Shown here: piece after piece, positions 6,941 to 38,076 of the stretch
Layout: each line of letters opens with the position of its first letter
How positions within the stretch are numbered: position 1 is the stretch's first letter
DNA from: Brevibacillus agri
GTDB taxonomy: Bacteria > Bacillota > Bacilli > Brevibacillales > Brevibacillaceae
Length of the DNA stretch: 64,000 nucleotides
Direction: 5' to 3'
Assembly: GCF_004117055.1 (NCBI RefSeq)
Contig: NZ_CP026363.1
Span: 602,001-666,000, forward strand
Program-made: the position numbers and the translations under genes
Notes under the pieces: model-generated
The model's input: only the letters and a program-made list of their open reading frames with translations
Told to the model about the DNA's origin: nothing
Database searches by the model: none

Positions 6941-6963
6941 ACAGTGAGCCGTATCACAAATAG
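6940..6963 (+). repeat. Module-junction repeat A (reads HSEPYHK-stop)
   Basis: First of four same-orientation copies. Codons CAC AGT GAG CCG TAT CAC AAA TAG. It abuts the right end of the IS21-like remnant and precedes the 86-aa gene. Downstream it shares TAGTG-TAAA-CA-AA with copy C. Confidence 0.65.
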
Positions 6964-10553: not shown

Positions 10554-10584
10554 ATATTGAAGTAATCCAAAAGGAGCACGCTTG

Positions 10585-12222: not shown

Positions 12223-12225
12223 AAG

Positions 12226-14445: not shown

Positions 14446-14456
14446 GGGGCATAGCG

Positions 14457-17862: not shown

Positions 17863-17886
17863 TGCGGTGAGCCATATCATAAATGA
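17863..17886 (+). repeat. Module-junction repeat B (reads CGEPYHK-stop)
   Basis: Codons TGC GGT GAG CCA TAT CAT AAA TGA, followed by CGCATATTTTT. It lies between the Hachiman terminator and the Wadjet genes and matches copy D closely on both sides of the core. Confidence 0.7.
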
Positions 17887-21337: not shown

Positions 21338-21350
21338 AGGAGGAAAAGAG

Positions 21351-24300
21351 ATGCCATCCATGCACCGGGTTCGTCTGGCAAATATTAAGCTCGAAAACGG
21401 CACGAGGGTCATACCCGATCAAACTTACGTTTTTTTAGCACTTCACGCGCTCTACATTCTGGAGAACGGAGGCGGCAAAACGAGCTGGATCCAATCCGTC
21501 CTGCAAACAGTGCTTCCGAACGTCATGCTCGGATCCCGCCATTACAAAGATGTGGTGCAGACGAAAAGCACGGGGCATATTGCGGTTGAATGGAGGATCG
21601 ACGGGGTTTTGGAGCGGTACGTGTGTACAGGGTTCTGTTTTTATAACAGCGTGGATTCGAAGCACGAGCTTCAATATTTTAACTATGTCTACGAGTATGG
21701 TCCTCGGGACAACTTTAATATCTCATCCCTTCCGTTTGTTTCGGAGCATCGGAGTGTGATGGGATTTCATGAGTTGCGGCGGTTCCTTAAAAACCAGACC
21801 GAGTGGCAGGTGTATCTCCCCGAAAATAACGGAGATTATGCCATCCATCTTGGAAAGTACGGGATCCACTCCCAGGAGTGGAAAAGCATCCAAGAGGTAA
21901 ACGGCCGCGAGTCTTCCATGGACAAATACTTTGAAAATGCAAAATCTGTGGAAATGCTTATGGAACGCCTCATCGTTCCGACGCTGGAGGATGCTATCTA
22001 TGCAACGGAGGAAGCAAAAAAAAGCCTCATTCAAAGCTTTGGGGTGTTCCAAAAAAATCTGATGGAAATCCCACAGATCAAGAACAATCTCGAAGAAGCG
22101 GAGAAAATTGAGACTCATGCCAAGCGTTTGCTTGCTGAGCTCGAAACTCTGCACCTCTATGCGGCCGCGTACCAAGGCGCTGTGGACCGCAAGCAGCGAT
22201 GGCTTACCGCTGTGTCGAAGGCAAAGGAGGACGTTGCAAACCTACTTGAGAAACTGGAGCACGATCTCGCCTCCAATCAAAGCGAGTCCATGGAATTGGA
22301 GCGCCTGCAGCATGCACAGCAGATCCAGATGGAACATGGGAAAACTGAGTCTCTCCAGCGCGATATGGAATCAGCAAAGGAACGCCTCCGCCAGCAAGAG
22401 CAGAATTTGCAGGCAGCCGAAGATGCGTATCGGTTTGCCCGAGGCAATCTTTACTTTCAGGCATACCAGAAGGCGCAAGGCGATTACCGGGGTGCCGAGG
22501 TCCAAATGCAGGCCCGCAAAGCAGAACATGATGAGCAGCTGGAGATGTATCTCAGAAAAAAGACGCAGTTCGAGCAAGCAATCGCAAGGGAACTTCGCGG
22601 TACCCAGTCCCAATCGGATGAGGTGGAGGCTTCCATCCAGGAAAACAAGGAATGCCAGCGGGAAAACGCCCTGCAACGGCAAAAGCTTTCGGTGGAGCAG
22701 GCTAGGCTAGATGCTGTGCGGGAGGAGCTCGAAACCTGGGTGGAAGAAACGGAAGCGGAGCGCGAGAGGCTGCTACCGATCATCGGGCCCAAATTGAGTT
22801 TCGACCCCAAAGGCGTGGAAATGGAATTCAAAACAAACTATCGGGACCGTGAGGCGTCATTTGAGCAGCATAGGCTCGATCTCGACGAAGCTGAAAGCCG
22901 CGGTCGGCAAATCGCCAAAGAGGAAAGAGAAACTTTGGCACTGCTGCAGACGGCGGAAGAATCGCGTAAGGACGTGGTCCGAAAGCAAGAGGCATTTGAA
23001 CACCTCTCGGGCCTCACCTCTTCCGCGATTGACCCGTGGTTCCGTGTACATACTTCGCTGTATGACCAGGAAACGTCCATTACGCTTCGGCTGAAAGGCG
23101 CAGAGGAAAAAGCCAGCGCACGCGTACAACAAACGCGCAATGCCGTCGACACGCTGCGGAGACAAATTGCCCGTTATACCAATCGGGACCATATCATTAC
23201 TTCCGATGAACTGATGTCCGTCCACGACTATCTCGAAGAGAGAGGGGTATCTGCAGAGTACGGCGTCAAATATGTCAAAGCGCAGGATGAACGGTTCCGC
23301 GATCAGTACCCGCATCTCACTCGGCTGCTGCCGTTCGGTCTGCTCATTCGGGAAGAAGAGTGGGGGAGAGTGCAGCAGCTCATGCATCGAGCCCCTGCGC
23401 CTCTTAAGGAACTGCCGACTTGGTTCTTCCTTTTAGAACGTCTCGGGTCAGATGTGCCGTTTGGCGATGAGGGGGCGTTTGTGCGGGTCACATCGTCGTT
23501 TTCCATATTTCAGCCACATGAGGTGCTCTCCCTCGTTGAAGAAGAGGTCATTCGCCAGAAGGTTCTTCAACTGGAATCTCAGCTTCAAACGGAAGAAGCA
23601 GCAGATGCCGAAGCCAAGGCTGACCTTGCCGCGGTTCAACGGGCATTGTTTACATGGAACAATTTTCTTTCCCGATATCCAACACGCCCTGACTTTGAAT
23701 CCGAACTGGCGGGTTTTAATGCTGCAATCGCTGCGCACAATGTTGTGCTTCAAGAAATCAAAGAAAAAGCGCAGGCGTGCTTATCGTGCCAAAATGACCT
23801 CCGAGCAAAAATGGAACAGTGGTTACACGACAAAGGAAGCCTCATGACCCTCGTCCGCGATGTAGAGCATTATGCGGCACGCGCAGCGCTTTGGCCCGAG
23901 AAAGAGACACGGCTTACTGAAGCCCTCATTCGTTTGGAAGAAATTACTGAACAGCTCCCTCTTCTCACGGATGCATTTGCACAACTGGAGCGAGCGGAGA
24001 AACTATTGAGCGAGCGTCGGGACCAACTGATCCAAAGTAAGGCTATGCTTCAAAGCAAGAAAGAGCAGTATGAGCTTGGCACGAGCGACGACCTCTGCTT
24101 TGTGCCCCTGCCGACCGCAGAAAGTGAATATGTAGCAATTCGTGCGGAAATACAGCAAATCGGTCTGGGCATCACGGAGCTTCAAAAAAACATGGACAAA
24201 GCAAAGGCAGATATGGAATCCGCCCAGCAGCAGATCGAGTTTCTGAAATATACCATAATGGACATGGAGGCGCACCATGAGCACACCACGCCATTGATGG

Positions 24301-25697
24301 TGCAGGAGCGGGAGCAGGAGGTGGAGGAGTCTCGATACCGTAAAGAACAAGCTTCAACGGTGTATATTCGGCACGAAACTGAGCACAACCGTCAGTCAGA
24401 GCAGGAAGCCGTTCTTACCAAAAAATTTACAGGCACATACGGAGTCGATCCGCTTGCCGTCGAAACACCGAGCGTGACTGAACTAAAGGCGCGCATGCTC
24501 CTGAATACCCAGCAGCGAGAAAAAGCAGAGGTGGAGCAGAAGAAGCAGAACGACCTGTGGCACGAGCTCGACAAAATCGTGGACGGGTACGACACCGTAA
24601 TGGCGCAGATCAAAGACCGAGGGATTGCACCAATGGTGGAAGAAGAGCGCCTTACGTTCGGACCTACATGGACATTCCAGCATAAACGGTTGAAAGACGA
24701 TGAGTCTCTTGCGGAACGGGAAAAACGAAATGCAGAGTGGAAGGTTGAAAGCGTGTACGACGCCTTCCGCAAAGATCTGCAGTCTTCCGCGAATGCGTAT
24801 GTCTCCCAAATGCTTCGGCAGATTGATACCCTAACCGCTACGCCCAAGCGTTACGATTTTCTGTATGTGAACGCACGGTTTCAAGAAAGTTTTGAGGCGG
24901 TGGAAGCATACCGAAGAAAGTATGAATTGGATTTGGAGCAGCGCGCCAAAGATCGGGAAGAGATGATCTTCCGTTTCCATACTCGCGTCAAAGAAATGTA
25001 TGACGCCATTATGGAAATTCCAAAGCGCTCCCGTATTGATTGGAACGGCAAGCGGGTGCGTGTCGTGGAAATCGTATACCCGTGGCGGGAGGACACGATC
25101 GTGTGGGAAAAGCTGAAATTCCACCTGGACGCACTACTTCAGGATCTCTCCGCCATGAAAAAGCAGGGAGAGACGGAACAAAAGATGGAGGCCTACATCC
25201 ACGCCCAGCTTAGGACGTCGGTGCTCCTGTCGGTGGTATCTTCGTTTTCCACTTGTGAATTCAAAGTGGCGAAACCGCTCAACGACGAAAATATTGTCCA
25301 GCCGATTTCTCACCACTCTTGGGAAAACGTGCATGTATGGAGCGGAGGACAAAAATATTTTGGGTATATGGCCGTATTTGTTTCACTCTTGTCAGCGGTC
25401 CGCATGAAACTGACGGGGAGCGATCAATCCTGGAAAGTGATTGTGGCGGATAACCCCTTCGGCTCTGCGTCCTCGCATCATATCTTGGAGCCGCTCCTTG
25501 CCGTGTGTAATGCAAACCATGTTCAACTAGTGTGCCTCACGGCAATACGGGATGAAGGGATTGTCTCCCACTTCGACATTGTCTACAGCAACCGCTACTT
25601 TCACACAGGAAGTGTCGAGATCATGCAGAGCAAGTTGGAGAACAAATCACCTTCGGCTCTTCGCTCAATCCATGTTAACTTTTCAGCCAGCTCGTAA
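21351..25697 (+). CDS. jetC: Wadjet JetC, SMC/MukB-like ATPase
   Basis: A 1448-aa SMC-type motor. The N-terminal head holds Walker A at G40GGKT44 (LENGGGKTS). Two very long coiled-coil arms (about 220-620 and 760-1160) flank a central hinge-like part. The C-terminal head carries the signature WSGGQKY at 1330-1336 and Walker B VADNPFG with D1367. AGGAGG precedes ATG 21351. It would bind ATP, dimerise, extrude plasmid loops and present them to JetD. The gene is full-length and shows no breaks, so the whole cluster appears intact. Confidence 0.93.
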   Translation: MPSMHRVRLANIKLENGTRVIPDQTYVFLALHALYILENGGGKTSWIQSVLQTVLPNVMLGSRHYKDVVQTKSTGHIAVEWRIDGVLERYVCTGFCFYNSVDSKHELQYFNYVYEYGPRDNFNISSLPFVSEHRSVMGFHELRRFLKNQTEWQVYLPENNGDYAIHLGKYGIHSQEWKSIQEVNGRESSMDKYFENAKSVEMLMERLIVPTLEDAIYATEEAKKSLIQSFGVFQKNLMEIPQIKNNLEEAEKIETHAKRLLAELETLHLYAAAYQGAVDRKQRWLTAVSKAKEDVANLLEKLEHDLASNQSESMELERLQHAQQIQMEHGKTESLQRDMESAKERLRQQEQNLQAAEDAYRFARGNLYFQAYQKAQGDYRGAEVQMQARKAEHDEQLEMYLRKKTQFEQAIARELRGTQSQSDEVEASIQENKECQRENALQRQKLSVEQARLDAVREELETWVEETEAERERLLPIIGPKLSFDPKGVEMEFKTNYRDREASFEQHRLDLDEAESRGRQIAKEERETLALLQTAEESRKDVVRKQEAFEHLSGLTSSAIDPWFRVHTSLYDQETSITLRLKGAEEKASARVQQTRNAVDTLRRQIARYTNRDHIITSDELMSVHDYLEERGVSAEYGVKYVKAQDERFRDQYPHLTRLLPFGLLIREEEWGRVQQLMHRAPAPLKELPTWFFLLERLGSDVPFGDEGAFVRVTSSFSIFQPHEVLSLVEEEVIRQKVLQLESQLQTEEAADAEAKADLAAVQRALFTWNNFLSRYPTRPDFESELAGFNAAIAAHNVVLQEIKEKAQACLSCQNDLRAKMEQWLHDKGSLMTLVRDVEHYAARAALWPEKETRLTEALIRLEEITEQLPLLTDAFAQLERAEKLLSERRDQLIQSKAMLQSKKEQYELGTSDDLCFVPLPTAESEYVAIRAEIQQIGLGITELQKNMDKAKADMESAQQQIEFLKYTIMDMEAHHEHTTPLMVQEREQEVEESRYRKEQASTVYIRHETEHNRQSEQEAVLTKKFTGTYGVDPLAVETPSVTELKARMLLNTQQREKAEVEQKKQNDLWHELDKIVDGYDTVMAQIKDRGIAPMVEEERLTFGPTWTFQHKRLKDDESLAEREKRNAEWKVESVYDAFRKDLQSSANAYVSQMLRQIDTLTATPKRYDFLYVNARFQESFEAVEAYRRKYELDLEQRAKDREEMIFRFHTRVKEMYDAIMEIPKRSRIDWNGKRVRVVEIVYPWREDTIVWEKLKFHLDALLQDLSAMKKQGETEQKMEAYIHAQLRTSVLLSVVSSFSTCEFKVAKPLNDENIVQPISHHSWENVHVWSGGQKYFGYMAVFVSLLSAVRMKLTGSDQSWKVIVADNPFGSASSHHILEPLLAVCNANHVQLVCLTAIRDEGIVSHFDIVYSNRYFHTGSVEIMQSKLENKSPSALRSIHVNFSASS

Positions 25698-26388: not shown

Positions 26389-26412
26389 TGTGGAGAACCA
26401 TACCACAAATAG
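26389..26412 (+). repeat. Module-junction repeat C (reads CGEPYHK-stop)
   Basis: Codons TGT GGA GAA CCA TAC CAC AAA TAG, followed by TGTTAAAGCAAAAGG. The upstream codons of the same frame read CRYRQ. It lies between the aldo/keto reductase remnant and the kinase fragment, and its downstream side resembles copy A. Confidence 0.65.
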
Positions 26413-26503
26413 TGTTAAAGCAAAAGGTTGAACTAGAGGTAACTGGAGATATATTAGGAGATTTCGATTAAAATTATCATGAACAAAAAATCACGCTACT
26501 TTT

Positions 26504-26544
26504 GAACTCAACACAATCGAATTATCTTCGATATTGTTGAGTTC
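26504..26544. other. Inverted repeat ahead of kinase fragment
   Basis: GAACTCAACACAATCGA faces TCGATATTGTTGAGTTC around a 7-nt loop: two stems of 10 and 5 bp with a small internal mismatch. No T run follows. It may be an operator or a transcript hairpin for the kinase gene about 145 bp further on. The rest of 26279-26689 has no gene I can support. Confidence 0.4.
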
Positions 26545-26689
26545 TTCAATTTAATCGCCTTCCTTTGATTAACAAATCTAATAATATCAAGGAATTATAC
26601 TCGATAGGACTTAGGACTGTTAACTATGGCAGAAAAAGTAGTATACTGGGACTATATTGGAAACCATTTACTTTTGGGGAGGAAGGTCC

Positions 26690-27061
26690 TTGCGAGCACC
26701 TGATTTAACAGCAGACGAAGTTAAAGACATTTGTCCTGAGTGTGATAATATTGAGTTTTTGGGTAAAGGTGGGCAAAAGGCCGTATTCTCCTGCCTAATT
26801 GATGGAGGCAGATACGCAATAAAATTTCTGGATTTAACAAATGTTCAAAGCGATCAGGGACCACAAGACTTGTTAGGTCTAGACTCACAGTTAACGGTCT
26901 CCCCAATGGAGGATATTAGGGAAGACGTATTGGCAAGGGCTAAACGTGAAATTGATATTATGGACCGTTGTGAGACACCAACCTTAGTTAAGTTAGGTCC
27001 AATTGGAATGACATTTGTTGATTATAATAAGACAGATTGTAATATCAAGTGCGACACCTAG
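26690..27061 (+). pseudogene. Serine/threonine protein kinase fragment, cut by IS30
   Basis: About 123 residues remain. EFLGKGGQKAVFSCL is a glycine-rich loop and YAIKFLDL gives the ATP-anchoring lysine, so this is the N-lobe of a Hanks-type kinase. I start at TTG 26690 because GGGGAGG lies about 7 bases upstream. The frame ends at 27061, just where the IS30-family element begins, and no HRD or DFG motif follows after the IS elements, so the catalytic lobe is lost. Kinases of this kind occur in several anti-phage systems; which one is not decidable from this stub. Confidence 0.75.
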
Positions 27062-27063
27062 AT

Positions 27064-28105
27064 AAAAAAACGGCCCATGATTGATTCGTGTAAAATGAAG
27101 TCACGACAACACCATTTACACAGGAGAATCAATCATGAGTTATACACATCTTAGCATAACAGAGCGTAGTGAGCTAGCACTCCTTCATCGTTTGGGTTGG
27201 TCTGCCCGCGCCATTGCCAGAGAACTCAAACGGCATCATGCTACCATTGCCCGTGAGTTAAAACGGGGTTGTAAGGCAGGGGAATATCAGGCAGAAGCCG
27301 CGCATGAGGTTTACGAGAAACGTCGCGAACGGTCTGTTCCCAGAGGCAAGCGGACTCCTGAACGTGAGCATTACATTGCCAGTAAGCTGGCGCAGACCTG
27401 GTCTCCCGAGCAGATTGCCGGACGGATGAGTCAGGAATGCCCCGAACAGAAAGTGTCGTTTAAAACGATGTATCGCTGGCTGTATCAGGGCTTTTTGGTT
27501 AAAGGAGATACCACCGTTTTACGCCACAAAGGGAAACGCCGGAGACCAATCGAAACACGTGGTCGTTTCAACGTAGGAAAGTCCATTCGGCAGCGACCCA
27601 AGGAAGTACGAAAGCGTGAGAGCTTTGGTCATTGGGAACGGGATACGGTTGTTTCCAGCCGTGGAAAAAGTAAGGCGTGTGTCGCGACGTTCGCTGAGCG
27701 CAAGACACGCTTTTACCTTGCCGTAAAGATGCCTGATCGTACCTCGGCTTCCATGGAAAAGGCCTTTGGTTTCGTTGCTGAATCGTTACCGAAAGGATCG
27801 TTTCAAACAGCTACCGTTGACCGTGGCAAAGAGTTTGCCTGTTACGAACGGCTGGAGTCAGCACATGGCGTAAACATTTACTTTGCCGATCCCTACTCTT
27901 CCTGGCAAAGGGGCACGAACGAGAACGCAAATGGCCTTCTGCGAGAATTTTTTCCCAAAGGCAAGGATTTTGCCGAAGTCTCCGAGGAGGAACTGATTCA
28001 GGCCTTGGAGCTCATTAACAATCGGCCAAGAAAATGTCTGGGTTGGAAGACCGCTTACGAATCATTCATGGAAGCTCTGTCGCACTTGTCTTGACAATTC
28101 GTCGA
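27064..28105 (+). mobile_element. IS30-family insertion sequence (ends approximate)
   Basis: Contains one complete IS30 transposase and lies against the broken kinase gene. The leader shows GTGTAAAATG and CATTTACAC flanking a short segment. I could not fix the terminal repeats or the target duplication, so the ends are good to perhaps 20 bp. Confidence 0.7.
27135..28094 (+). CDS. IS30-family transposase
   Basis: 319 aa, intact. The N-terminal HTH (LSITERSELALLHRLGWSAR, then IARELKRHHATIARELKRG) is typical of IS30. The DDE core has WERDTVV (first D), TVDRGKEFACYE (second D) and SWQRGTNENANGLLREFFPKG (E), the usual IS30 signature. AGGAGAATCAATC precedes ATG 27135. It is followed by a hairpin AAGAAAGCAA/TTGCTTTCTT with T run at 28108-28136. 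Confidence 0.95.
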   Translation: MSYTHLSITERSELALLHRLGWSARAIARELKRHHATIARELKRGCKAGEYQAEAAHEVYEKRRERSVPRGKRTPEREHYIASKLAQTWSPEQIAGRMSQECPEQKVSFKTMYRWLYQGFLVKGDTTVLRHKGKRRRPIETRGRFNVGKSIRQRPKEVRKRESFGHWERDTVVSSRGKSKACVATFAERKTRFYLAVKMPDRTSASMEKAFGFVAESLPKGSFQTATVDRGKEFACYERLESAHGVNIYFADPYSSWQRGTNENANGLLREFFPKGKDFAEVSEEELIQALELINNRPRKCLGWKTAYESFMEALSHLS

Positions 28106-28107
28106 TT

Positions 28108-28136
28108 AAGAAAGCAATCAGTGGTTGCTTTCTTTT
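28108..28136 (+). terminator. Rho-independent terminator after IS30 transposase
   Basis: AAGAAAGCAA pairs with TTGCTTTCTT around a 7-nt loop and is followed by TTTT. It lies between the IS30 gene and the next IS element. Confidence 0.75.
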
Positions 28137-28142
28137 TTATGT

Positions 28143-29619
28143 GAGCCTTTTGCAAAATTAGGTTTTCGTTTAAAAAATGAAGTTTAATGGTACGTAAAGT
28201 GGGAAATGCCACTTTTATAAGGTAAAGCCTAAAAGCAAGATGGGCATTCGGACAGAATTTTGCGATGCTGCTTTTTTCAAAAGAGTGCTTAGGCCGTTTT
28301 TTTGGATGGCTTGGCTTTCTTTCCTGCCAGAGCAGACACCAATAATACGATAGCATTCAAATACACATACGTTTTCACTTTTTGAATGCCACCGACATGT
28401 AGATCATTCGCTGTCAGGTTTTCCTTTAAACGGGCATTGCATCGCTCTACACTCGTCCGTTTGTGATACATCTTCTTCCAATTCTTTGTGTCCCGATGTG
28501 GCAAAGAAAATCTGCGGAGATCATCGTGGACGTTCACTTTTACGACCATTCCGTAGTTGGAGGAAGAGCACCAAGCTGAGCCGTGTGGGCACTCTACTTT
28601 TCCCATCACATGCGGGCAACGAAATTTGAGATGGGTTCCGTCAGCACCTGCGTACACCATTTCAAATCCCATGCTGCATCGAGGCGTTCCGTTTGACGTA
28701 TAACCAGCAGGTGGCTCTTTCTCGTTTCGGAGGTTTAGAGGAATGATAGCCTGTGCCTTGTATTGATGAGCGATTTCGTAGTTCTTGAGATGATCGTATC
28801 CACCATCCATCACGTAATTCTTACACACTTCCTTGGCTTGGTTGTTCACTTGTGCCAGGAGAGGAGGAGCCATGTCTCCATCGTTGACGTGAGCAGGAGT
28901 GACTTCTAAAGCAACAGGCAATTCGCTGTCCGCGTCTACTGCCAGATGAATTTTGTAACCGAACCACGTGATTTTATTGCCAAAGGAGTCGAACTTGGCT
29001 CCCCAGGTGGCGTTTCCTGTTCCTTGGCAGCGAGATTTCGGTTGCTTTTTTTCATACGCATCAATCGCCGTGCTGTCGATGGCAATGGTCGTTCCTGTAA
29101 TGATTCCCTCTTCACGGCATTGCATGACGAGGTCGTAAAACAGCTTCTCGGCAACGCTTTTCTGGACAATTTGAGCAAATACGCGACTAAACGTTGCAAT
29201 GGATGGAACGGGTCGATCAATGGGAAACCCACACTGGTAACGAAAGCGTAAATCACTTGTGAGTCTCAGATGAAGAGCAGTAAATTGCGAAATTCCTTCG
29301 AAAGGAGCCGCCAACAAAGACCGTAAAATCGCTTCGCGGCTGTGTCCCGTTGCCCCTTGGGGCGTAATGCTTCTCAATTCTTTGGCGTACGGGCGTAAGT
29401 CCAGAACCGAAAAAAATAAGGGCAGACGTTCTTTCGATTCAAGTTTTTGCAGTTCCTCAAAGGAAAAAAGTGATGGCTGGAGAATATACAAGTGACTTCA
29501 CCTTCCTCGAAAAGTTTTCGTGTGTGGTTGCTTGAAAACTTCTCCTTCTTGGGGTGAAGTCCTTTTTTATGCTTTTCAAGTGCTTGATACGAAAGGGCTC
29601 AGAAATCTGCAAAAGGCTC
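28143..29619 (-). mobile_element. IS1182/IS5-like insertion sequence
   Basis: GAGCCTTTTGCA at 28143 and its inverse TGCAAAAGGCTC ending at 29619 are perfect 12-bp terminal repeats. A 4-bp duplication ATGT flanks them (28139-28142 and 29620-29623). Length 1477 bp with one transposase gene on the minus strand. Confidence 0.85.
28289..29491 (-). CDS. IS1182/IS5-like DDE transposase
   Basis: 400 aa, intact. The N-terminal DUF772-type region (PSIATFSRVFAQI) is followed by a DDE core: TIAIDSTAIDAYEKK (first D), YVMDGGYDHLKN (second D) and KRTSVERCNARLKENL (E). The WFGYKIHLAVDAD segment is typical of IS5/IS1182 groups. The ends and gene agree in orientation. It sits between the IS30 element and the recombinase gene. 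Confidence 0.92.
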   Translation of the reverse strand: MYILQPSLFSFEELQKLESKERLPLFFSVLDLRPYAKELRSITPQGATGHSREAILRSLLAAPFEGISQFTALHLRLTSDLRFRYQCGFPIDRPVPSIATFSRVFAQIVQKSVAEKLFYDLVMQCREEGIITGTTIAIDSTAIDAYEKKQPKSRCQGTGNATWGAKFDSFGNKITWFGYKIHLAVDADSELPVALEVTPAHVNDGDMAPPLLAQVNNQAKEVCKNYVMDGGYDHLKNYEIAHQYKAQAIIPLNLRNEKEPPAGYTSNGTPRCSMGFEMVYAGADGTHLKFRCPHVMGKVECPHGSAWCSSSNYGMVVKVNVHDDLRRFSLPHRDTKNWKKMYHKRTSVERCNARLKENLTANDLHVGGIQKVKTYVYLNAIVLLVSALAGKKAKPSKKTA

Positions 29620-29829
29620 ATGTGTAAAATGCAATTTACAAAAATCTCAAAAAATATTGTTGTGGCTTATCAAAAATGTTATTTCATACTTATTTCGTCT
29701 TTTGATATTCATGTTATATTACATCTACAAACTAAGGAGACTCAATAAAACTTCAATATAGTTTATCAACATTCCCTCGACAAAGTAGTGCACTCCTTGT
29801 TTAAAAAAACACGAGGGGGAGTAGATAGT

Positions 29830-29946
29830 ATGGAAAAAAATCATTCAGTAGTTCAACTTACAATTGAGGAAATTAAGAAGCAAGAATTAATAAAATTGTT
29901 GGCAGAACTCATTAAACAATATGCACAACAAAAACAAAATAAATAA
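29830..29946 (+). CDS. Small protein upstream of recombinase (38 aa)
   Basis: MEKNHSVVQLTIEEIKKQEL and onward to TAA at 29944. GAGGGGGAG precedes ATG 29830. It ends 39 bp before the recombinase start and is probably co-transcribed with it. A short helical, Lys/Gln-rich peptide; function unknown. The flank 29624-29829 holds the promoter region and nothing else I can name. Confidence 0.55.
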   Translation: MEKNHSVVQLTIEEIKKQELIKLLAELIKQYAQQKQNK

Positions 29947-30571
29947 ATCTATTTACGAGGTGGCTCATTTAGGAGGGGATTGAATATGAGGTATGCAGTA
30001 ATTTATGTCAGGGTTTCTACAGAAGAGCAAACAAAAGGCTTTTCTCTTGACGGACAAATTAATGAGGTTCGCAGATATCTTGAACGGAAAGGTTACACTG
30101 TATATGAGATTTATATAGATGATGGTTATTCTGGAAAAGATTTTGAACGTCCAGCAGTGCAAAAAATGTTCAGAGACATGCAACAAGGTAAATTTGAGGC
30201 AATCGCAGTTTGGAAAGTGGATAGATTATCTCGTTCTAACAACGATGTTTTGACATTAATCAATCACCATCTAAAGCCTAATGATCTAAAGTTATTAGTC
30301 AGTACGTGTGATATTGATAGTTCTACAACGAACGGATACATGTTTATTTCTTTACTGTCAACATTCGCTGAATACGAAAGAGCCCAGATTATTGATCGAG
30401 TCAATAATGGAATGCAAAAAAGAGCTGAAAATGGAAAATGGAATGGGGGAATAATACTAGGATATGATATCGTGGAAAAACAGTTAGTTATTAACACAGC
30501 TGAAAGTCAAATTGTTCAAAAAATATTTGATCTAAGGGCCGAAGGGAAAGGTTATAAATTTATTGCCCATT

Positions 30572-32015
30572 CATTAGCGTTGCATAAAAAATGAATCCAT
30601 CTATTGTCAAATTATTCTGAATGACATTTTCAACTTCACAACCAAAAACGAGAACAGCCAAGCAAAAGGTAGCCACTATCCATTTGGTAGTTTTATACAT
30701 TTATTACAACATCGACAACAACAAACAACACTTACTTCCTTTTCTGTCGCCCTCTGGATGTTCGTTTGGATTGGTAATCCATTCTGCCTATCCATTGTTC
30801 AAAGGTCTGCCAGAGAAACACTTTGAGCCATCTACTGATTTGCAGCAGACTGTGCTGACTGTTTCTTTCCAGCTTTACAAGAAGCAACAAGCAGTAAGCA
30901 ATGAGAGCGAGAAAAACTTGATTCCAGACCGCATTTTCACTTGTTCCATAGAACGTCTTGATCTTTGCGTGTTGTTTCATCCATTTGAAAAACAGTTCTA
31001 TTTGCCAGCGCCAACGGTAGATGTCGCTCAATTCTTCTGCTTCTAAGTCGAACCGATTGGTGATGATTCGAATACGATTTCCTTTCGAATCATGCGTTTC
31101 AATCAGTCGTAACACATTATCCACCCGTTTTTGTGGCGTTCCAAGAAGGATCATGGAGTCGGATAAAACGGAGCTTTCTGGTGGTACTTTGAAAGTATAC
31201 AAATGACGAGTTTCCGCGTTATCCTTGAGACGTGAAGCAAAAAAGATGCCCTGATCGGTATACTCATCGAACTTTTCATAATCCACGTACCCTCGATCAA
31301 AGACGTACATGGCTCCGATCTCATCAATCAGCGACTCCATTTGGGTGCGGTCATTGGATTTGGCACAAGTTAGGGAAATCTTTTCAGGATAGACATCCTC
31401 CTGGCTTGCGAAAACGAGACGAAGATGAATTTTGATTCCTGCCTTTGTTTCGCGAAAGGTTGCCCACTTATACTTTTGCAAACATAATCCAATTGTAGTG
31501 GAATCAATGATCTTTATGTGTTTTCGAAGAGAGCAGGCTTTTCCGGAAACGCGTTGAATTTGCTGGACAAGGTCGACAAAAACTTCTTCAAGCAAAGCAG
31601 GTTCTACCCGATTGTTTTTTCGACTAAGCTGTGCGGGGCTGATCGATGACAGTCCTAATTCTTGCTGAAATTTCTTTGATAGAACATCGTCAGCAATGGC
31701 TCGAAGCCCTTCGCGTTGCTGAAGTTGGGCATGTAAAAATAGGAGAAGATACGCTTTTGTCGTCAGCTTCTTCACGTACTTGTCTTGATCCGTTTCGTCA
31801 ATTCGTTGTTGAAGTTTCATAATATTGATGGGTGCAACCCATTTACCAAATGAAGAAAATAGGGTATTCTTGTCCATGAGCTATCCTTTGCGTTGGATTT
31901 GGACAGGAACTACCTGACCTTTCCAGTGTAAAGGATTTTTTTGTTCCCTAGACAACCAAATACCAAAGATTATGTGTATTTTGAATGATGGGAAAAGATT
32001 AATGCAACGCTAGTG
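30572..32015 (-). mobile_element. IS4-family insertion sequence inside recombinase gene
   Basis: Terminal repeats CATTAGCGTTGCAT (left) and, inverted, CACTAGCGTTGCAT (right) match at 13 of 14 positions. The 9-bp target duplication TTGCCCATT is at 30563-30571 and 32016-32024. Length 1444 bp. Boundaries are therefore exact. Confidence 0.95.
30732..31877 (-). CDS. IS4-family transposase
   Basis: 381 aa, apparently intact. DDE motif parts: KIIDSTTIGLC (first D), MYVFDRGYVDYEKFDEY (second D) and the YREK-type region YRWRWQIELFFKWMKQH (E), which defines IS4. ATG 31877 begins MDKNTLFSSFGKWVAPIN. Intact gene, ends and target duplication suggest a fairly recent insertion. Confidence 0.95.
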   Translation of the reverse strand: MDKNTLFSSFGKWVAPINIMKLQQRIDETDQDKYVKKLTTKAYLLLFLHAQLQQREGLRAIADDVLSKKFQQELGLSSISPAQLSRKNNRVEPALLEEVFVDLVQQIQRVSGKACSLRKHIKIIDSTTIGLCLQKYKWATFRETKAGIKIHLRLVFASQEDVYPEKISLTCAKSNDRTQMESLIDEIGAMYVFDRGYVDYEKFDEYTDQGIFFASRLKDNAETRHLYTFKVPPESSVLSDSMILLGTPQKRVDNVLRLIETHDSKGNRIRIITNRFDLEAEELSDIYRWRWQIELFFKWMKQHAKIKTFYGTSENAVWNQVFLALIAYCLLLLVKLERNSQHSLLQISRWLKVFLWQTFEQWIGRMDYQSKRTSRGRQKRK

Positions 32016-32981
32016 TTGCCCATTACTTAAATAATAGTGGGATGAAAACAAAAAAAGGTAATCACTTCAGCATTAATACCGTTAAAACAATTTTGGAGAA
32101 TGCAACATACACTGGGCAGATAGAATGGGGAAAACATCGGGAATGGGAACGAAAGCGCAGAAAGGGAAGACAAGAAGAATACTGCATTGTCAAGGGTGAA
32201 CACCAACCAATAATTACGATGGAACTTTGGAATCAAGTTCAAAATATAAATGCAGAACAGAATAGGAATAATATTACATATAGCAATTTTAAAGGTGATT
32301 TTATCTTAGCGGGAATATTAAAATGTCCTTCCTGTGGTGCAGGGACTGTAATGACTAAAGCCAAAAAGAGGAATAAAGAAGGCTATCATCTTTATTACAT
32401 GTGCCAAAATTATCACTCAAAGGGGATAACCGCTTGTAGTTCCAATCTGATAAAGAAGGAACTAATAGAAGAAAAGGTTCTTGCGGGCATACAGGGATTA
32501 CTTACAAATCCTCAAATCGTAGAAAATATTTGCATAGCATTGAATACAGAAAAAAATGAAGGTATTGAGGATCTGCAAGTGCACTTATCTATAGCAAAAA
32601 CAGAATTAAGAAAAGTAGAAAAGTTGAAACGGGATACTGAGGGATATTATCTGAATGGGGATTTGGACGTTCGGGTTTATAATACAACAATGATTAGTGC
32701 ATTGGAAAACGAAGAAAGAATAAGAAGTCAAATTGAACAAATCCAAAAGTCTATTTCCACTCATACTTCAGTTTTTCAGATTAGTCGTGAGTTTATTATA
32801 GAGGCTCTAAAGGACTTTAATAATCTATCTGAGACTGCTGATAATGAAATGAAGCGTGCGTTGTTACGATCACTTATTAAAAGCATTGAGGTTGAATCAA
32901 ATCGAAAGGATATCAAAAGTATCGTCTTCTGGTTCACGGAAGACGATACTTTTACGAAATTTGTTTTACCAGAGAATGAGT

Positions 32982-33005
32982 TGCGGTGAGCCTTATCATA
33001 AGTGA
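32982..33005 (+). repeat. Module-junction repeat D (reads CGEPYHK-stop), at recombinase end
   Basis: Codons TGC GGT GAG CCT TAT CAT AAG TGA in a frame different from the recombinase, whose own stop (TGA 32987-32989) lies inside. Followed by CGGCAAGTTTTT. Close match to copy B. The gap 32990-33189 has no further gene. Confidence 0.7.
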
Positions 33006-33189
33006 CGGCAAGTTTTTGAGTTTCGAGCACTCAGGAGCCATTCTAACAAATTACGAGAGTGTACCTTGGGTTTTCCAAAACTGACCATTAACGTAAAGCG
33101 CTGAAAAAATGAATTAGAGATGAGATTTAAATGGACCCATTCACCAAACGGGGCATGGTATATTTATGTATGTGGGGAGGAGTCAAAAC

Positions 33190-34572
33190 ATGATTGGATT
33201 TAATACCGTACTTCCACTTTCAACGGATACATCGGTTGAACACTTTCTTAATATTTGCCGGGTATGGCAACAACGGAGTCCACATACAACGATGATTTTT
33301 GACGACCAGCCTATTCAGAATGGTCTGAAGTATGAGAGCGATCAGGAAATAATGGAGTTCGTCCATGTGACGGGAAGTGAAGGCGTGCACTGTGGTGTGC
33401 GGCATATCCGAAAAGACGAAGACGGCGAATGGCGAACCGATGTCGTTGGGTATAAAACGGCGGTTGATTTCAAGGTAGCGATTGTTTCGTCACGTTCACA
33501 TTTCAACGTGACGACCTATACTGAGCTCCCGTTTACCCCATACATCGTAAGTCTGCTCATTCGGGAGACGGGCCCGATGTTTGACGACGGCATCCGCATC
33601 GAAGCGGGGCCCAAAGAGGTCACGGAAGAAAACGTCGCCGAGCTCGCTGCGTTGATCAACTGCCAGAAAAGCAATGCAATGCCAGTCATTTACGTCAGCA
33701 AGCCGTTTTCCGGCGGTGCGTATCTGACGGACCCTCGAAGGCTGGCATTGAAACTGGCCGGACTGGCGCATGTATATTTCGAGACGGATACGAAGGTATC
33801 AACGATGCTGAAGGCATTGACGGATGGAAAAAATGCGTACAATGGCTCAATCGGTATCTATTGGCAAGACCGTAATTTCAGAAGATTTGTGTTGAACGAC
33901 ACAGACGAAAACATCAATCAAAAAATCCAAAATTACGTAAAAACAGTGTTGAATACGCGGAAAACGGCTGACGAATACCGCTGGTCCTACGTTCAACACT
34001 TGCAATATCAACGGGCGATCGAGCGGTACCGCGAAGGCGAAGCCGAAAACAACGGGATGATCGAGTACGCTTTGCAGGAAAACGAGGAGCTGCGGGAACA
34101 GGTCAGGAGCCTAGAGGCAGAAAACTATTATTTGAAGGGAATACAGCAGATGCTGTATTCAAATGAGTTGGACGAGCAGAGACCGTTGATTTTCAAAGGC
34201 GCCGAAGTGGAACTATTCGCCAACGAGCAGGCGGAACTTATTCTCGACATCATTGAGGAGAAGCTCAGGAGCGGAAGCTGTTCAGTACGCATCCGAAATA
34301 TGTTGGAATCCATTCTGGAAGCCAACGAGCGAACGAACAACAAGAAAACGTTTATCGATCAGGTGAAAGCCGTGCTGACGGAGTCTGGCGGCTTGTCGAG
34401 TCAGGGAAAAAGGGAACTAATTAAACTCGGGTTTGAGTTGACTGATGATGGAAAACACTACAAGCTTAAGATTAAGGGTGAAGATCGCTATTCGCATTCT
34501 ATTGCCAAGACACCAAGTGACGTCCGCTCCGGAGAAAATAACTTCGCACAGTTCAAGAATCGGTTTTTTTAA
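33190..34572 (+). CDS. Unknown multi-domain protein after junction D
   Basis: A 460-aa protein that I cannot name. I start at ATG 33190 (MIGFNTVLPLSTDT) with GGGGAGGAG upstream, not at 33166. About residues 100-230 form an alpha/beta unit with PVIYVSKPF, DPRRLALKLAGLAHVYFETD and GSIGIYW. A coiled coil spans about 275-335, and the C-terminus (about 400-460) ends with GKHYKLKIKGEDRYSHSIAK and a TPSD-R-G-N pattern, possibly a small nucleic-acid-binding fold like HicA-type domains. It stands alone after junction repeat D and before an IS3 element, in the place where other modules carry defence genes. Confidence 0.7.
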   Translation: MIGFNTVLPLSTDTSVEHFLNICRVWQQRSPHTTMIFDDQPIQNGLKYESDQEIMEFVHVTGSEGVHCGVRHIRKDEDGEWRTDVVGYKTAVDFKVAIVSSRSHFNVTTYTELPFTPYIVSLLIRETGPMFDDGIRIEAGPKEVTEENVAELAALINCQKSNAMPVIYVSKPFSGGAYLTDPRRLALKLAGLAHVYFETDTKVSTMLKALTDGKNAYNGSIGIYWQDRNFRRFVLNDTDENINQKIQNYVKTVLNTRKTADEYRWSYVQHLQYQRAIERYREGEAENNGMIEYALQENEELREQVRSLEAENYYLKGIQQMLYSNELDEQRPLIFKGAEVELFANEQAELILDIIEEKLRSGSCSVRIRNMLESILEANERTNNKKTFIDQVKAVLTESGGLSSQGKRELIKLGFELTDDGKHYKLKIKGEDRYSHSIAKTPSDVRSGENNFAQFKNRFF

Positions 34573-34775
34573 TGAGTTTTCTATCATAATTTTTCCTGAG
34601 AGAGCAAGCTGCTCCCATACGAATCAAATATTAATCCTCTCAAATCGTTTTTTAAGGAAAGGATTCGTATTTCCTGATACCATAAGCTTATTTACCTCGC
34701 ACAACCGTTTTTTGCGAAAACTCCCAGACCCTTTCTTGTAAGCTTACGCAAAAGTAAAAGCTGGAGGCATATTAG

Positions 34776-34802
34776 TTAAGGGCACCCCAAAAGGTGCCCT
34801 AA
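34776..34802. terminator. Hairpin after the unknown 460-aa gene
   Basis: TTAAGGGCACC pairs with GGTGCCCTAA around CCAAAA. There is no clear T run, so it may be a weak terminator or an element-end structure. The rest of 34573-34823 has no gene I can support. Confidence 0.4.
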
Positions 34803-34890
34803 TAACTTGTGGATCGGCTACACTGAATTGGACAATTCTCTTAAGGTCTAGTAGATTGAAATCAAATCGACAAGGAACGGAGAGAATGTC

Positions 34891-35175
34891 ATGCAGAAAC
34901 GTGAGCGTCGGTCATTTACAGACGAGTTCAAGCAGCAGATGGTTCAACTTTACGAGAATGGGAAACCGCGGGCAGATATTTTGAGAGAATATGATCTGAG
35001 TGCATCTGCGTTTGACCGTTGGGTCAAACAGAGTAGAACAACAGGTTCTTTCAAAGAAAAGGACAACCGGACAGAGGAACAGAATGAACTCCTTGCGCTA
35101 CGTAAGGAAATTCAACGATTGAAAATGGAGAACGATATTTTAAAGCAAGCAGCGCTGATCTTCGGACGAAAATAA
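34891..35175 (+). CDS. IS3-family OrfA
   Basis: 94 aa. An N-terminal HTH (RRSFTDEFKQQMVQLYENGK) and a leucine-zipper-like tail (LRKEIQRLKMENDILKQAAL), as usual for IS3 OrfA. The stop is 2 bp before the orfB start and orfB lies in the -1 frame, so a programmed -1 frameshift to make OrfAB is possible, though orfB also has its own GTG. Confidence 0.92.
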   Translation: MQKRERRSFTDEFKQQMVQLYENGKPRADILREYDLSASAFDRWVKQSRTTGSFKEKDNRTEEQNELLALRKEIQRLKMENDILKQAALIFGRK

Positions 35176-35177
35176 CA

Positions 35178-36014
35178 GTGATCCAGCAAAACGCTCATAA
35201 GTATCCCATATCGGCCATGTGCAAGATTCTTCAGGTCAATAGGAGTACCTACTACTACGAGAGTAATGAGCAATCATCTGTCAATGATGAAGTGGAACAA
35301 GCAATTATCCGTATTTTTGAAGAGAATCAGCGCGTGTATGGAGCAAGGAAGATCAAAGCAAAACTTCAAGAAGAGGGAATGACGGTTTCCAGACGGCGCA
35401 TTGGACGTCTGATGAAGAAAAACGGCCTGGTCTCGGTCTACACAGTGGCGCAGTATAAACCGCATATGTCGTCATGTAACGAATCGCCGATCCAGAACGA
35501 ACTGAATCGCGAGTTTGCGAAAGAAGCACCATTGGAAGCCGTTGTGAGTGACTTGACATACGTTCGGGTCGCAAATAAATGGCACTATATTTGCTTGCTC
35601 GTAGACTTGTTTAACCGGGGGATCATTGGCTATAGCTGTGGAAAATACAAAGATGCTGCTCTCGTCTACCAGGCTTTTGCAAGCGTAAAGGGAGACTTGC
35701 GTCAGATCCAGCTCTTTCATACGGATCGTGGTAGTGAATTTAAAAATCAGACGATTGATGAAGTCATCCACACGTTCGAAATCAAACGTTCCCTGAGCAT
35801 GAAAGGCTGTCCCTATGACAATGCAGTTGCTGAAGCTACCTTTAAGCTAATCAAAGCAGAGTTCGTAAAGAATCGGCAGTTTGAGTCGTTGACACAGTTG
35901 AAGCTAGAATTAGAAAAATACGTCAAGTGGTTTAACGAAACAAGAATTCACTCGACATTGGGGTATCTGAGTCCACTCGTTTACAAACAGAAGGCACTTA
36001 AGAAATCCGTCTAG
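35178..36014 (+). CDS. IS3-family OrfB transposase
   Basis: 278 aa. The HTH_21-type N-terminus (YGARKIKAKLQEEGMTVSRRR) is followed by the integrase core: VVSDLTYVRV (first D), LFHTDRGSEFKN (second D) and GCPYDNAVAEATFKLIKAEF (E). It ends with the usual WFNETRIHSTLGYLSP segment. Apparently intact. GTG start at 35178. Confidence 0.95.
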   Translation: MIQQNAHKYPISAMCKILQVNRSTYYYESNEQSSVNDEVEQAIIRIFEENQRVYGARKIKAKLQEEGMTVSRRRIGRLMKKNGLVSVYTVAQYKPHMSSCNESPIQNELNREFAKEAPLEAVVSDLTYVRVANKWHYICLLVDLFNRGIIGYSCGKYKDAALVYQAFASVKGDLRQIQLFHTDRGSEFKNQTIDEVIHTFEIKRSLSMKGCPYDNAVAEATFKLIKAEFVKNRQFESLTQLKLELEKYVKWFNETRIHSTLGYLSPLVYKQKALKKSV

Positions 36015-36040
36015 TTTGGTGTTGACAGTCCACATTTCAG

Positions 36041-36939
36041 AGGATACAAGCGATTTCATTTTGCTTGTTCCTGAAAAATACCGTAACAAGGAAAAAGAAA
36101 TTTTGGATTACTTTACGAAAGTAAGAAAGAATCTTGTTGAGGTAGATGAGAACCGGTTTCAGGTGGAAGTTCCGGATCGTGTAAGAAATCAACGGCTGTC
36201 TATCATCTGGACAGCAAATAACCAGAAAATATTTAGCTTCAATCCAGAAGTGTTTCCATTAGAAAACAATATGATTGTAGATCCGATTATTCGCGTCGTT
36301 ACTGAGAAAAACAGCCTTGTTGCAGACAAAGCCAACATGATGAGCGGAGGGGGGGGCCGCGATCCGTTAAAGGTGAAATTGATAAACAGAGACAGTGAAC
36401 GGACGTTCGAGTTGCTCGAACCTGAACTGAAAAGGCTGAAGCTCGACGATAACCTGACAAATCTGATATCAGTCGACCAATATGTTCTGAGTCAGATATA
36501 TGAATTGAAAAATACAAGGACCCAGCTTACATTCATCAGTCTCGGACTGTTAGCCGGATTGCTGGTGCTTGTCGTACAAAATCTGAGCGTGTTTTTTAGC
36601 AAATTTCAACGAAGATTTATCGTGCGCAGATTATTCGGTACCGGTTTTTTCAAAACGTACCAGGAATATATGTGGTTGCTGTCGGTGACATGGGCGATCC
36701 AGATCGGCGCCTGCCTATTGGTAAACAGTGGTTTTGCATCCAGTTTGCTTCAAATGGCCGGAAGTGTATCTATGGTAGCGTCATCCGTCAACGAAGCAGT
36801 CGGATCATCTAGCGATCGTCTGCTTGCAATAGGCGGCGGGGTGCTCGCTATTGAATTTGTAGCGTCTGTTCTCGCACTGTTTGTTATCGAGCGGAAAAAT
36901 AAAGGAAAAGTACTAAAAGGAGGTGGGGGAGCAGCATGA
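36041..36939 (+). pseudogene. Bacteriocin-associated membrane protein, 5' end lost to IS3
   Basis: The reading frame enters from the IS3 right end and runs about 300 codons to a 4-bp ATGA overlap with the ABC ATPase gene. Hydrophobic helices lie near the middle (FISLGLLAGLLVLVVQNLSV), then about two more before the end (LLAIGGGVLAIEFVASVLAL). The layout and partner match DUF1430 permeases of lactococcin-972-type export systems, which are usually around 650-700 aa, so roughly half is missing. No bacteriocin structural gene is present in the window. Confidence 0.7.
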
Positions 36940-37577
36940 AAACGGTATGTGAACTGGTTGATGTCAGCAAACGCTATCAAGATCACACGGTTCTTGAACA
37001 AATCAATTTGAAAGTATATGAAGGAGATATGCTCGCTATTACGGGTAAAAGCGGCTCTGGCAAGACGACTGTTCTCAATATTATGGGATTGCTTGAAGAT
37101 CCGAGTAGTGGCACAGTGAAACTGTTTGATAAGCAGCGTCCGCGGATTGGATCGGCTCAGGCAAACAAACTGCTTAGAACAAGAATTGCTTATCTCTTCC
37201 AGAACTTCGCATTGATTGATGATGCAACCGTTGACTATAACCTTGAGGTCCCGCTGCTTTATTCGGGAAAAACAAGAGCGGAAAAGCAAAAATTAAAAAA
37301 AGAGGCACTGGAGAAAGTGGGGCTGGATATCTCACTCAAGCAAAAAACATACGGTTTGTCGGGCGGGGAGCAACAACGGGTGGCAATTGCGAGGATATTG
37401 TTAAAGCCATGCGACCTCATCCTTGCCGACGAACCGACAGGATCATTGGACGTCGACAACCGCAATGAAATTGTGAAGCTTCTGAAGGAACTGAATCATA
37501 AAGGCAAAACGATTATTATCGTCACTCATGATGAGTACGTTGCGGGAGAATGTGGCAGAATGATTACACTGTCATGA
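36936..37577 (+). CDS. Bacteriocin-export ABC transporter ATPase
   Basis: 213 aa, full-length. Walker A G37KSGSGKT44, Q-loop LFQNF, signature [14 protein letters not shown], Walker B LILADEPTGSLD, and H-loop VTHDE. This is the MacB/LolD-like group that pairs with large permeases in lactococcin 972 export. The start overlaps the truncated permease stop. With the permease broken, the transporter is probably non-functional. GC-poor codon use resembles the island. Confidence 0.88.
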   Translation: MKTVCELVDVSKRYQDHTVLEQINLKVYEGDMLAITGKSGSGKTTVLNIMGLLEDPSSGTVKLFDKQRPRIGSAQANKLLRTRIAYLFQNFALIDDATVDYNLEVPLLYSGKTRAEKQKLKKEALEKVGLDISLKQKTYGLSGGEQQRVAIARILLKPCDLILADEPTGSLDVDNRNEIVKLLKELNHKGKTIIIVTHDEYVAGECGRMITLS

Positions 37578-38076
37578 GGAAGAGGTTGCCCGATCCAATT
37601 CTCAGGCAGTCATATAATACCCCGTTTTAGGAAAACATAAAGAAAAATGTCCCGCGAAGACCAATGAGCAGTGTGGCAAAACGTATCAGTGGTGGCACAA
37701 AAAGCGACGATTGCAATATACTGACTGATGAAGAAATAAAGACCTCGTAACAAATCCGCTATAAACCAAAGCGACATCCGTGCAGCAACCGGGTAAAAGC
37801 TTTGGTTTTTGTCTATCCATGAGTTTTTTTACACAAATTGCCAACACATTCCCTATAAAAAGTATATCATTCCGACACTTTACGGGCCTTTTAATAGCAT
37901 ATAACTATCAATATATAGCAAATATTTTATTCTAAAGATAAAAGTGATACACTATATAACAGGTTGTAATTATTCCAGAAAAGGTGTGTACTAGGTAGCA
38001 CCCTGACTTGCAACGGGGCCAGATCAGGAGCCGCCTGCATCTTTTCTCCAAATACCAGCGAGTTAGGACGGTAAAC
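37578..38076. other. Island-to-core boundary, non-coding
   Basis: About 500 bp with no gene I can support. It holds the terminator at 37763-37812 and, near 38002-38028, a small CCTGA/TCAGG hairpin in what should be the mqo leader. To the right, gene order and composition look like core chromosome. Confidence 0.5.
37763..37812 (+). terminator. Rho-independent terminator
   Basis: AAACCAAAGC (37763-37772) pairs with GCTTTGGTTT (37799-37808), followed by a T run. It marks the right end of the island transcripts. Confidence 0.7.

Follow-up and report, generated by a model that had tools for sequence, protein, structure and literature searches.

Tandem att sites downstream of rlmH

The window analyzed here is a 64,000-nucleotide stretch of Brevibacillus agri DNA (contig NZ_CP026363.1, positions 602,001 to 666,000), and coordinates refer to it except where genome positions are given. 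The single genomic copy of rlmH lies at genome positions 591,703-592,173, 10 kb upstream of the window and on the same strand as an array of four short repeats, att A (6946-6963), att B (17869-17886), att C (26395-26412) and att D (32988-33005), all on the plus strand. Each repeat is a copy of the last six rlmH codons, which encode EPYHK and a stop codon. Att C, GAACCATACCACAAATAG, reads GAA CCA TAC CAC AAA TAG and att D, GAGCCTTATCATAAGTGA, reads GAG CCT TAT CAT AAG TGA in the rlmH frame. A fifth att site lies beyond the window, at the 3′ end of rlmH, and the differences from copy to copy are all synonymous in the RlmH frame. The initial annotation had located all four repeats correctly and had related them through shared flanks (TAGTG-TAAA-CA-AA and TGCGGTGAGCC); each flank alone is near chance, whereas the att sites read as GARCCNTAYCAYAARTRR are far from chance. 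Over the 74 kb reaching from rlmH to the window end there are five perfect att matches, all on the plus strand, and no plus-strand copies with one to three mismatches; the shuffle expectation per strand is 0.25 at two mismatches, 1.85 at three and none at zero or one. Genome-wide (5.37 Mb), two pattern searches added just a single site, at 352,373 on the minus strand. General repeat finders missed the sites because they are too short and too variable. A 277 bp MITE (6667-6943) separates the left part of att A. No tRNA, a candidate target, is present in the window, and the identity of the sites as rlmH ends rules out an interpretation of A-D as private repeats or target duplications.

The resulting array is an SCC-type (staphylococcal cassette chromosome-like) tandem in which the rlmH att is followed by A, B, C and D. 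As in SCC-type elements in the broad sense, insertion is at the 3′ end of rlmH with rlmH intact, and the array reaches D on the same strand. At least four units lie in series, rlmH-A, A-B, B-C and C-D, such that att A is the right end of rlmH-A and the left end of A-B, att C is the right end of B-C and the left end of C-D, and att D is the right end of C-D. It had been proposed that the repeats delimit two units, A-B and C-D, with Wadjet lying between them. C and D do bound a single recombinase unit, on its left and right respectively, but the sites are not private to two units, and Wadjet is itself the cargo of the bracketed unit B-C (Wadjet type III, JetD, JetA, JetB and JetC; 18043-25697, plus strand). 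Unit A-B carries a type III methyltransferase, a ResIII-type enzyme, a 229-aa protein and HamB, the Hachiman helicase (10582-17506, plus strand). Its ends match poorly (5/12, about chance), and A-B is therefore probably a hybrid or decayed unit. Overall, terminal repeats of neighboring sites pair at 6.26/12 as compared with 4.70 after shuffling (0 of 10,000 shuffles as good; n = 27 pairs). The flank after D (33006-33046, plus strand, beginning CGGCAAGTTTTTGAG) forms the left end of a different class of cassette. On its outer side the island is limited by mqo (38008-39579, plus strand), a conserved chromosomal neighbor downstream of rlmH throughout the genus. Since mqo, a single-copy gene in 26 of 26 congeners, mostly lies 6-60 kb downstream of rlmH, the rlmH-mqo interval is an insertion hotspot.

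Unit C-D contains a disrupted Ccr-type recombinase

Unit C-D combines rlmH-codon direct repeats at both ends with terminal inverted repeats, as expected of an SCC-type element in the broad sense. The left terminal repeat (26413-26424, plus strand, TGTTAAAGCAAA, T class) matches the right terminal repeat (32960-32971, plus strand, TTTGTTTTACCA) at 10/12, the best agreement among all right ends compared. These inverted repeats sit 16 nt from the GA that starts the att repeat, and the right one doubles as recombinase codons V-L-P. The left end also holds an orphan tail coding sequence (26397-26471, plus strand), TIPQIVLKQKVELEVTGDILGDFD followed by a stop, in a frame that continues the recombinase in the joined form. 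The cargo ORF is truncated (26657-27061, plus strand), with 134 codons present and an IS30-like element interrupting it; its earlier designation as a kinase finds no support in Pfam, PADLOC or PDB. The IS30-type transposase inserted in the cargo (27135-28094, plus strand; HTH_38, rve) is followed by a second insertion sequence (28133-29629) with terminal repeats at 28133 and 29603 and a DDE_Tnp_1/DUF772 transposase (28289-29491, minus strand). C-D contains no helicase ORF, which sets it apart from the core operon of staphylococcal SCC proper, and no recognized phage genes.

The recombinase attributed to C-D is indeed a large serine recombinase, but it is not intact. The N-terminal part (29980-30571, plus strand) carries the YVRVSTEEQ catalytic motif and matches CcrB (4.8e-47), and the C-terminal part (32025-32989, plus strand) also matches CcrB (3.7e-38). 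Between them lies an IS4-like insertion (30572-32015) flanked by a 9-bp target duplication, TTGCCCATT, at 30563-30571 and 32016-32024. Because this insertion splits the recombinase, the window copy of the cassette is dead. The protein includes the domains PF00239 (Resolvase), PF07508 (Recombinase) and PF13408 (zinc-ribbon), and the best NCBIfam match of both halves is CcrB, followed by CcrC, which makes it Ccr-type in the broad SCC sense. The halves score 161 and 132 bits and intact relatives of the same clade 293-338, as compared with curated CcrA/CcrB/CcrC cut-offs of 700-900; with scores so far below the CcrB and CcrC cut-offs, the window recombinase is a distant relative of the staphylococcal enzymes. 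As first annotated, its stop codon (TGA, 32987-32989) lies inside D, which starts at 32988.

Homologous cassettes end at the same points

An intact homologous element with the same boundaries, which the initial annotation had named as a check, occurs in five other genomes (Paenibacillus, Fontibacillus, Lentibacillus, Paraliobacillus and G181), where the recombinase is intact, 42-51% identical, and the cassettes end at exactly these points. Homologous cassettes span 29841-39116 in Lentibacillus, 110037-126600 in Paraliobacillus, 67753-92328 in P. turicensis, 71483-95029 in F. phaseoli and 2531586-2544232 in G088, and a further one is present in G181. Two of the intact carriers, F. phaseoli CECT 8333 and L. 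populi CGMCC 1.15454, can be cultured. The left end is rlmH itself in the Lentibacillus, Paraliobacillus, P. turicensis and F. phaseoli cassettes, and at the right end att overlaps the ccr 3′ end in all six. The att sites of the closest recombinases are placed exactly as D is. In the recombinase tree, the window protein falls within a seven-row clade (100/99) that contains every tested ccr of the att-overlap kind. A scan of 99 genomes found strong recombinase homologues in the genus and family to be rlmH-linked; G071, within the recombinase clade, is not at rlmH, and the G088 cassette copy lies 150 kb from rlmH.

Defense-type genes are present in 5/5 of the intact C-D-type cassettes examined. 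The relatives' cargo examined consists mostly of restriction-modification, Thoeris, SIR2 and replication genes, and the relatives encode Phage_CRI, Rep_trans or AEP-TOTE proteins where SCC has its core helicase. No circular form was seen, and no genome was found in which C joins D directly, a check proposed in the initial annotation; the nearest is G013, in which the flank class seen to the right of D directly follows the rlmH att, without C-D. G088 contains one tandem junction with joined ends. The joined-end pattern had no match in viral contigs, and a plasmid circle of the window recombinase was rejected, the best plasmid match being 32%.

The att site overlaps the recombinase reading frame

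By sequence comparison, overlap between att and the recombinase stop is conserved throughout the window recombinase clade. In the window this overlap is confined to the stop codon, whereas intact relatives carry att inside the reading frame, where its core provides the recombinase with a stop codon and, read in a different frame, encodes the EPYHK-stop of rlmH. In the rlmH-proximal class of SCC-like island, ccr runs into rlmH antisense. The opposite cassette end carries a conserved 19-30-codon tail that continues the recombinase frame once the ends are joined. Since the tail is fused to the recombinase solely in joined ends, integration should truncate the protein, and each chromosomal insertion appears to leave intact relatives with a shorter recombinase gene. 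In the window copy, the TGA at the crossover would block fusion of recombinase and tail.

Does this arrangement reflect coding, or do the overlap and the conserved tail simply follow from conservation of the att DNA? The 30 nt that follow GA, comprising the repeat and the terminal repeat, are constrained as recombinase-binding DNA, CATAA closes 5/30 tails, and the window ccr is closed by TGA, all of which would fit a by-product. However, beyond the terminal repeat the three codon positions of the ccr frame differ at 0.62/0.37/0.66, as compared with an even 0.72 farther inward, a stop is reached within 14 codons in 2/30 tails in the ccr frame as compared with 30/30 and 23/30 in the other frames, mean pairwise BLOSUM is 20.0 as compared with 3.5 and 1.2, and 21/25 open tails have a length of 19-30 codons. 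For these reasons a by-product without any coding arrangement is improbable. We hypothesize, tentatively and at somewhat short of even chances, that the joined-end att of this family falls within the recombinase gene, that the circular form specifies a long Ccr with its final 19-30 residues contributed by the opposite end, that integration at rlmH exchanges this half for host DNA whose CATAA core ends Ccr at RRTVS/RRTVP, and that this change may switch the enzyme from integrating to holding or excising with no separate factor.

Model for the C-D cassette

The best explanation overall, which we regard as highly probable, makes C-D an SCC-like cassette in decay, which belongs to a head-to-tail series of at least four such cassettes downstream of rlmH and would have been mobilized by its Ccr-type recombinase. 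An alternative hypothesis takes C-D for the integration unit of a prophage or phage remnant, served by a phage serine integrase, since the Resolvase, Recombinase and zinc-ribbon domains of the protein mark it as a large serine recombinase and it has relatives on two IMG/VR contigs. However, the best match among phage records is 27% identical as compared with 46-51% for chromosomal cassette relatives, no phage structural genes were recognized in C-D or in the relatives' cargo examined, and all sites copy the rlmH end, which together leave a phage origin very remote. A single large cassette with A as its left end and D as its right end, in which B and C are chance or secondary sites, would account for the sole recombinase within A-D lying at D, for a tail sequence in both A and C, and for a match between the A left and D right terminal repeats that is also 10/12. 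This reading is nonetheless unlikely: the att copies at B and C are both perfect, the one at C is followed directly by a T-class left end and a tail of its own, C-D is separable by end type, and later insertions would be needed anyway to place two att copies of other classes inside one unit.

In the SCC-like cassette model, a Ccr-type recombinase would have released C-D in circular form by a crossover that joins C to D. The circle, which in intact relatives is predicted to encode the longer recombinase, would have inserted either into the 3′ end of rlmH or into one of the copies of this end within the array. The crossover point is likely the GA that starts the repeat, because the terminal repeats lie 16 nt on either side. 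Each cassette brings its own copy of the last rlmH codons and insertion therefore leaves RlmH intact. The order of arrival would place the oldest cassettes on the D side and the youngest on the rlmH side.

The SCC cassette class includes the methicillin resistance cassette of MRSA. The island described here is thus a soil-type Bacillota defense island built by that class, with defense systems stacked cassette by cassette at rlmH, and the conserved split of the recombinase gene suggests a concrete answer to how such recombinases could control direction.

Comparison with known systems

SCC and SCCmec elements (CcrA/CcrB/CcrC) share with the window array the rlmH 3′ end as target, direct repeats of the last rlmH codons with a TATCATAA-type core, flanking inverted repeats, a Ccr-type large serine recombinase and tandem composite islands. 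C-D differs in its genus, in a single ccr that scores far below curated Ccr proteins, in its lack of the SCC core helicase, and in the distal position of ccr, whose 3′ end contains att; the cargo of the array is defense, with no mec. The Enterococcus cassette chromosome (ECC) shares the rlmH target, inverted repeats, variable cargo and extra att sites, its att being roughly 50 bp with TATCATAA, but it has a ccrAB pair and no tandem ECCs with several ccr were seen there (PMC6222049). SCC-like islands at rlmH are already known in diverse Bacillota, and the window array belongs to this broad kind, sharing its target, degenerate rlmH-end repeats, tandem composites and restriction-modification cargo (PMC10061031). 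Those islands are defined by PolA-SSB primases, whereas C-D relatives have G2P/Rep_trans initiators or an AEP primase, and the passages of that report consulted make no mention of att within ccr (PMC10061031).

No description of the split-recombinase arrangement was found in the open-access literature searched, and a review states that integration-disrupted recombinase genes are found only in archaea (PMC8371274). The archaeal suicidal integrases (SSV1, pTN3, pT26-2) likewise carry att inside the recombinase gene, such that integration disrupts it, and intact C-D relatives do have att in the recombinase frame. However, the archaeal enzymes are tyrosine recombinases whose gene is split into two inactive parts (PMC8371274), whereas the C-D relatives encode a bacterial serine recombinase for which the loss would be confined to a short C-terminal tail. 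In mycobacteriophage BPs, integration-dependent immunity also involves an att inside a gene, and the protein made from the integrated form is 33 residues shorter (PMC4557955); the att-bearing gene is the repressor there and the recombinase in C-D relatives.

Repeats derived from the rlmH 3' end

The repeats C (26395-26412) and D (32988-33005) proposed in the initial annotation are real, as are A (6946-6963) and B (17869-17886). The flank motifs cited for them occur by themselves at about the level of chance, but all four repeats conform to GAR CCN TAY CAY AAR TRR, which encodes EPYHK-stop, the C-terminus of RlmH. The genome (5.37 Mb in a single contig, of which the window is 602,001-666,000) has a sole rlmH at 591,703-592,173, 10 kb ahead of the window and on the strand of the array, and its product ends in RGEPYHK. 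Genome-wide, the att motif is found at the rlmH end and at A, B, C and D, all on the forward strand, with a single further site at 352,373 on the reverse strand; a mismatch-tolerant search of the 74 kb region gave no additional forward-strand site. Only synonymous differences separate the copies, a pattern that fits each having formerly ended a working rlmH. The rlmH 3' end is the insertion site of SCC and ECC cassettes, whose repeats have TATCATAA in common (PMC6222049); the window repeats are the SCC att site.

Both halves of the split window recombinase have CcrB as top match and CcrC second. Across 99 scanned relatives, the strong homologues found within the genus and family lay 115 bp to 28 kb downstream of rlmH, and weaker recombinases did not lie downstream of it. 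Most congeners carry one to four att sites serially after rlmH, and mqo, single copy in 26/26 congeners, is a common chromosomal neighbour mostly 6-60 kb past rlmH; in G036, of the same family, ~150 bp separate the rlmH end from the mqo start. The rlmH-mqo interval is thus an insertion hotspot across the genus.

Cassette ends and intact relatives

The left terminal repeat of the cassettes begins immediately past the att stop codon and the right one finishes 16 nt ahead of GAR. Neighbouring ends pair better than shuffled ends (6.26 versus 4.70 of 12; 0/10,000 shuffles), and the left end at C, TGTTAAAGCAAA, agrees with the reverse complement of the right end at D, TGGTAAAACAAA, at 10/12, the best among all right ends. 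Because the ends are symmetrical around the GA opening the att repeat, this GA would be the crossover dinucleotide. The right flank of D, CGGCAAGTTTTTGAG, is the left end of a different cassette class and stands directly after the rlmH att in genome G013. Shortly past D, between the array and mqo, lies a 468-aa ORF without family match (33166-34572).

Among 84,980 species genomes, the closest relatives of the window recombinase were those of Paenibacillus turicensis (46%), Fontibacillus phaseoli (45%), and Lentibacillus populi and Paraliobacillus (42%). Each of these four recombinase genes lies on the rlmH strand, 9-25 kb downstream, in a cassette that starts with TGGTAAA at rlmH and ends with TTTACCA-16 nt-att. 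The att at that end overlaps the recombinase 3' end, and the check suggested earlier, an intact homologous element with these boundaries, comes out positive; G088, G181, G105 and two IMG/VR contigs (L214, L215) have the same overlap. In the tree the window recombinase forms a group (100/93) with the P. turicensis and F. phaseoli proteins, within a clade of seven (100/99) that includes all att-overlapping recombinases of that orientation in the tree. One recombinase of this clade, in G071 (L068 ~5080-5235), seems to have a cupin (mannose-6-phosphate isomerase-like) gene as its insertion site instead of rlmH, and its 3' end still includes TTGCCA-16 nt-GA.

Defence-type genes occur in all five intact cassettes examined; among them are a type III system, type I modification and specificity genes, cytosine methyltransferases, Thoeris ThsA/ThsB and a SIR2 candidate. 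Each cassette also has a replication-type gene ahead of ccr (Phage_CRI, Rep_trans or AEP primase). In C-D-type cassettes the protein encoded ahead of ccr is a G2P/Rep_trans-like initiator or an AEP primase-HTH protein (L157 6047-7192, L158 12103-13251, L163 16591-17901, L159 16037-17467 and L161 16981-18417), at the position where SCC has a helicase/PolA-SSB primase; the cassettes are possibly replicative, with exchangeable replication modules.

A recombinase frame predicted to continue across the joined att site

The att core of the intact relatives serves two reading frames, RlmH EPYHK-stop and recombinase (R)RTVS-stop or RTVP-stop, and the recombinase stop is the TAA of CATAA. At the left ends of those cassettes CACAA replaces CATAA, and the recombinase frame stays open for 19-30 more codons with conserved SQIVVKQKIELTLD... 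CACAA is present in 25/30 distinct left ends of the T class, the type seen at C, versus 34/91 in other classes (Fisher 1.4e-5), and CATAA in 8/10 right ends versus 5/30 left ends (p=0.0006); the rows are related, and both p-values are indicative only. A better control is provided by the other two frames of the same DNA: within 14 codons, stops occur in 2/30 T-class left ends in the ccr frame versus 30/30 and 23/30 in the others. Past the terminal repeat, change is lowest at codon position 2 (0.37 versus 0.62 and 0.66) and flat at 0.72 further in. Such sequence patterns support a protein-coding tail at the left end.

When the ends of six cassettes were joined in silico, each gave a single open frame (e.g. 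...LPLNDMRRTVSQIVVKQKIELTLDLDLFNKFFNQSL). Together with the left-end tail, these frames predict that the circular form would yield a longer recombinase and that integration would shorten it. We hypothesize that the tail alters recombinase activity. The window recombinase stop TGA (32987-32989) falls within D, as had been claimed. This TGA, formed at the crossover, ends the reading frame, so the recombinase's own tail would stay unjoined; A and C both retain tail sequences.

In a large, mostly Bacillaceae class (L084, L086, L093-L095, L100, L102, L108-L113, L115, L119, L120, L131, L133, L140 and others), ccr adjoins rlmH convergently, and its frame runs into or through att, covering up to ~150 nt of antisense rlmH. 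The recombinase C-terminus may depend on integration state there too.

State of the array

The window recombinase is split by an IS4-like element (30572-32015, 9-bp duplication), and the C-D cargo is mostly replaced by an IS30-like element and a third IS. The 'kinase' once assigned to this unit is a 134-codon fragment without support. A 229-aa protein without family match (14457-15146), flanked by the type III enzyme and HamB, is by position a candidate HamA-like partner.

The unit between rlmH and A runs from genome 592,180 (L002 6180-18001) to window 6666 and holds a second, intact CcrB-like recombinase outside the window (genome 595,537-597,096) and, inside the window, a retron-type reverse transcriptase (4645-5619). 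Stretches of this unit share 94-98% identity with a Brevibacillus fulvus (G028) cassette, compared with 81% for rlmH, which points to recent horizontal transfer and fits an array growing at rlmH. A 277-bp MITE-like element (6667-6943; inverted ends ~27 bp, 6-bp target duplication GTGAGC) lies within att A and masks the real right end of the unit (CGTTGCAG-16 nt-GAGC).

The orphan sixth att copy at 352,373 (L004) lies 240 kb away from rlmH. On its left stands a CGTTGCAG-type cassette end, and 1.4 kb of sequence on its right matches the G013 region after the rlmH cassette at 99.9% identity, which suggests a displaced fragment of an rlmH-type cassette array.

Relation to known systems

Earlier work describes SCC-like islands at rlmH in many Bacillota, among them tandem composites and islands with restriction-modification cargo (PMC10061031), so the window array itself adds one more example, not a new type. 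The placement of att within the recombinase gene, with a conserved tail, is a variant for which no description was found in the open-access papers covered. A review of archaeal integrases considers recombinases that disrupt their own gene to be restricted to archaea (PMC8371274). The shortening proposed here for the recombinase is comparable to that of the repressor of mycobacteriophage BPs (PMC4557955).
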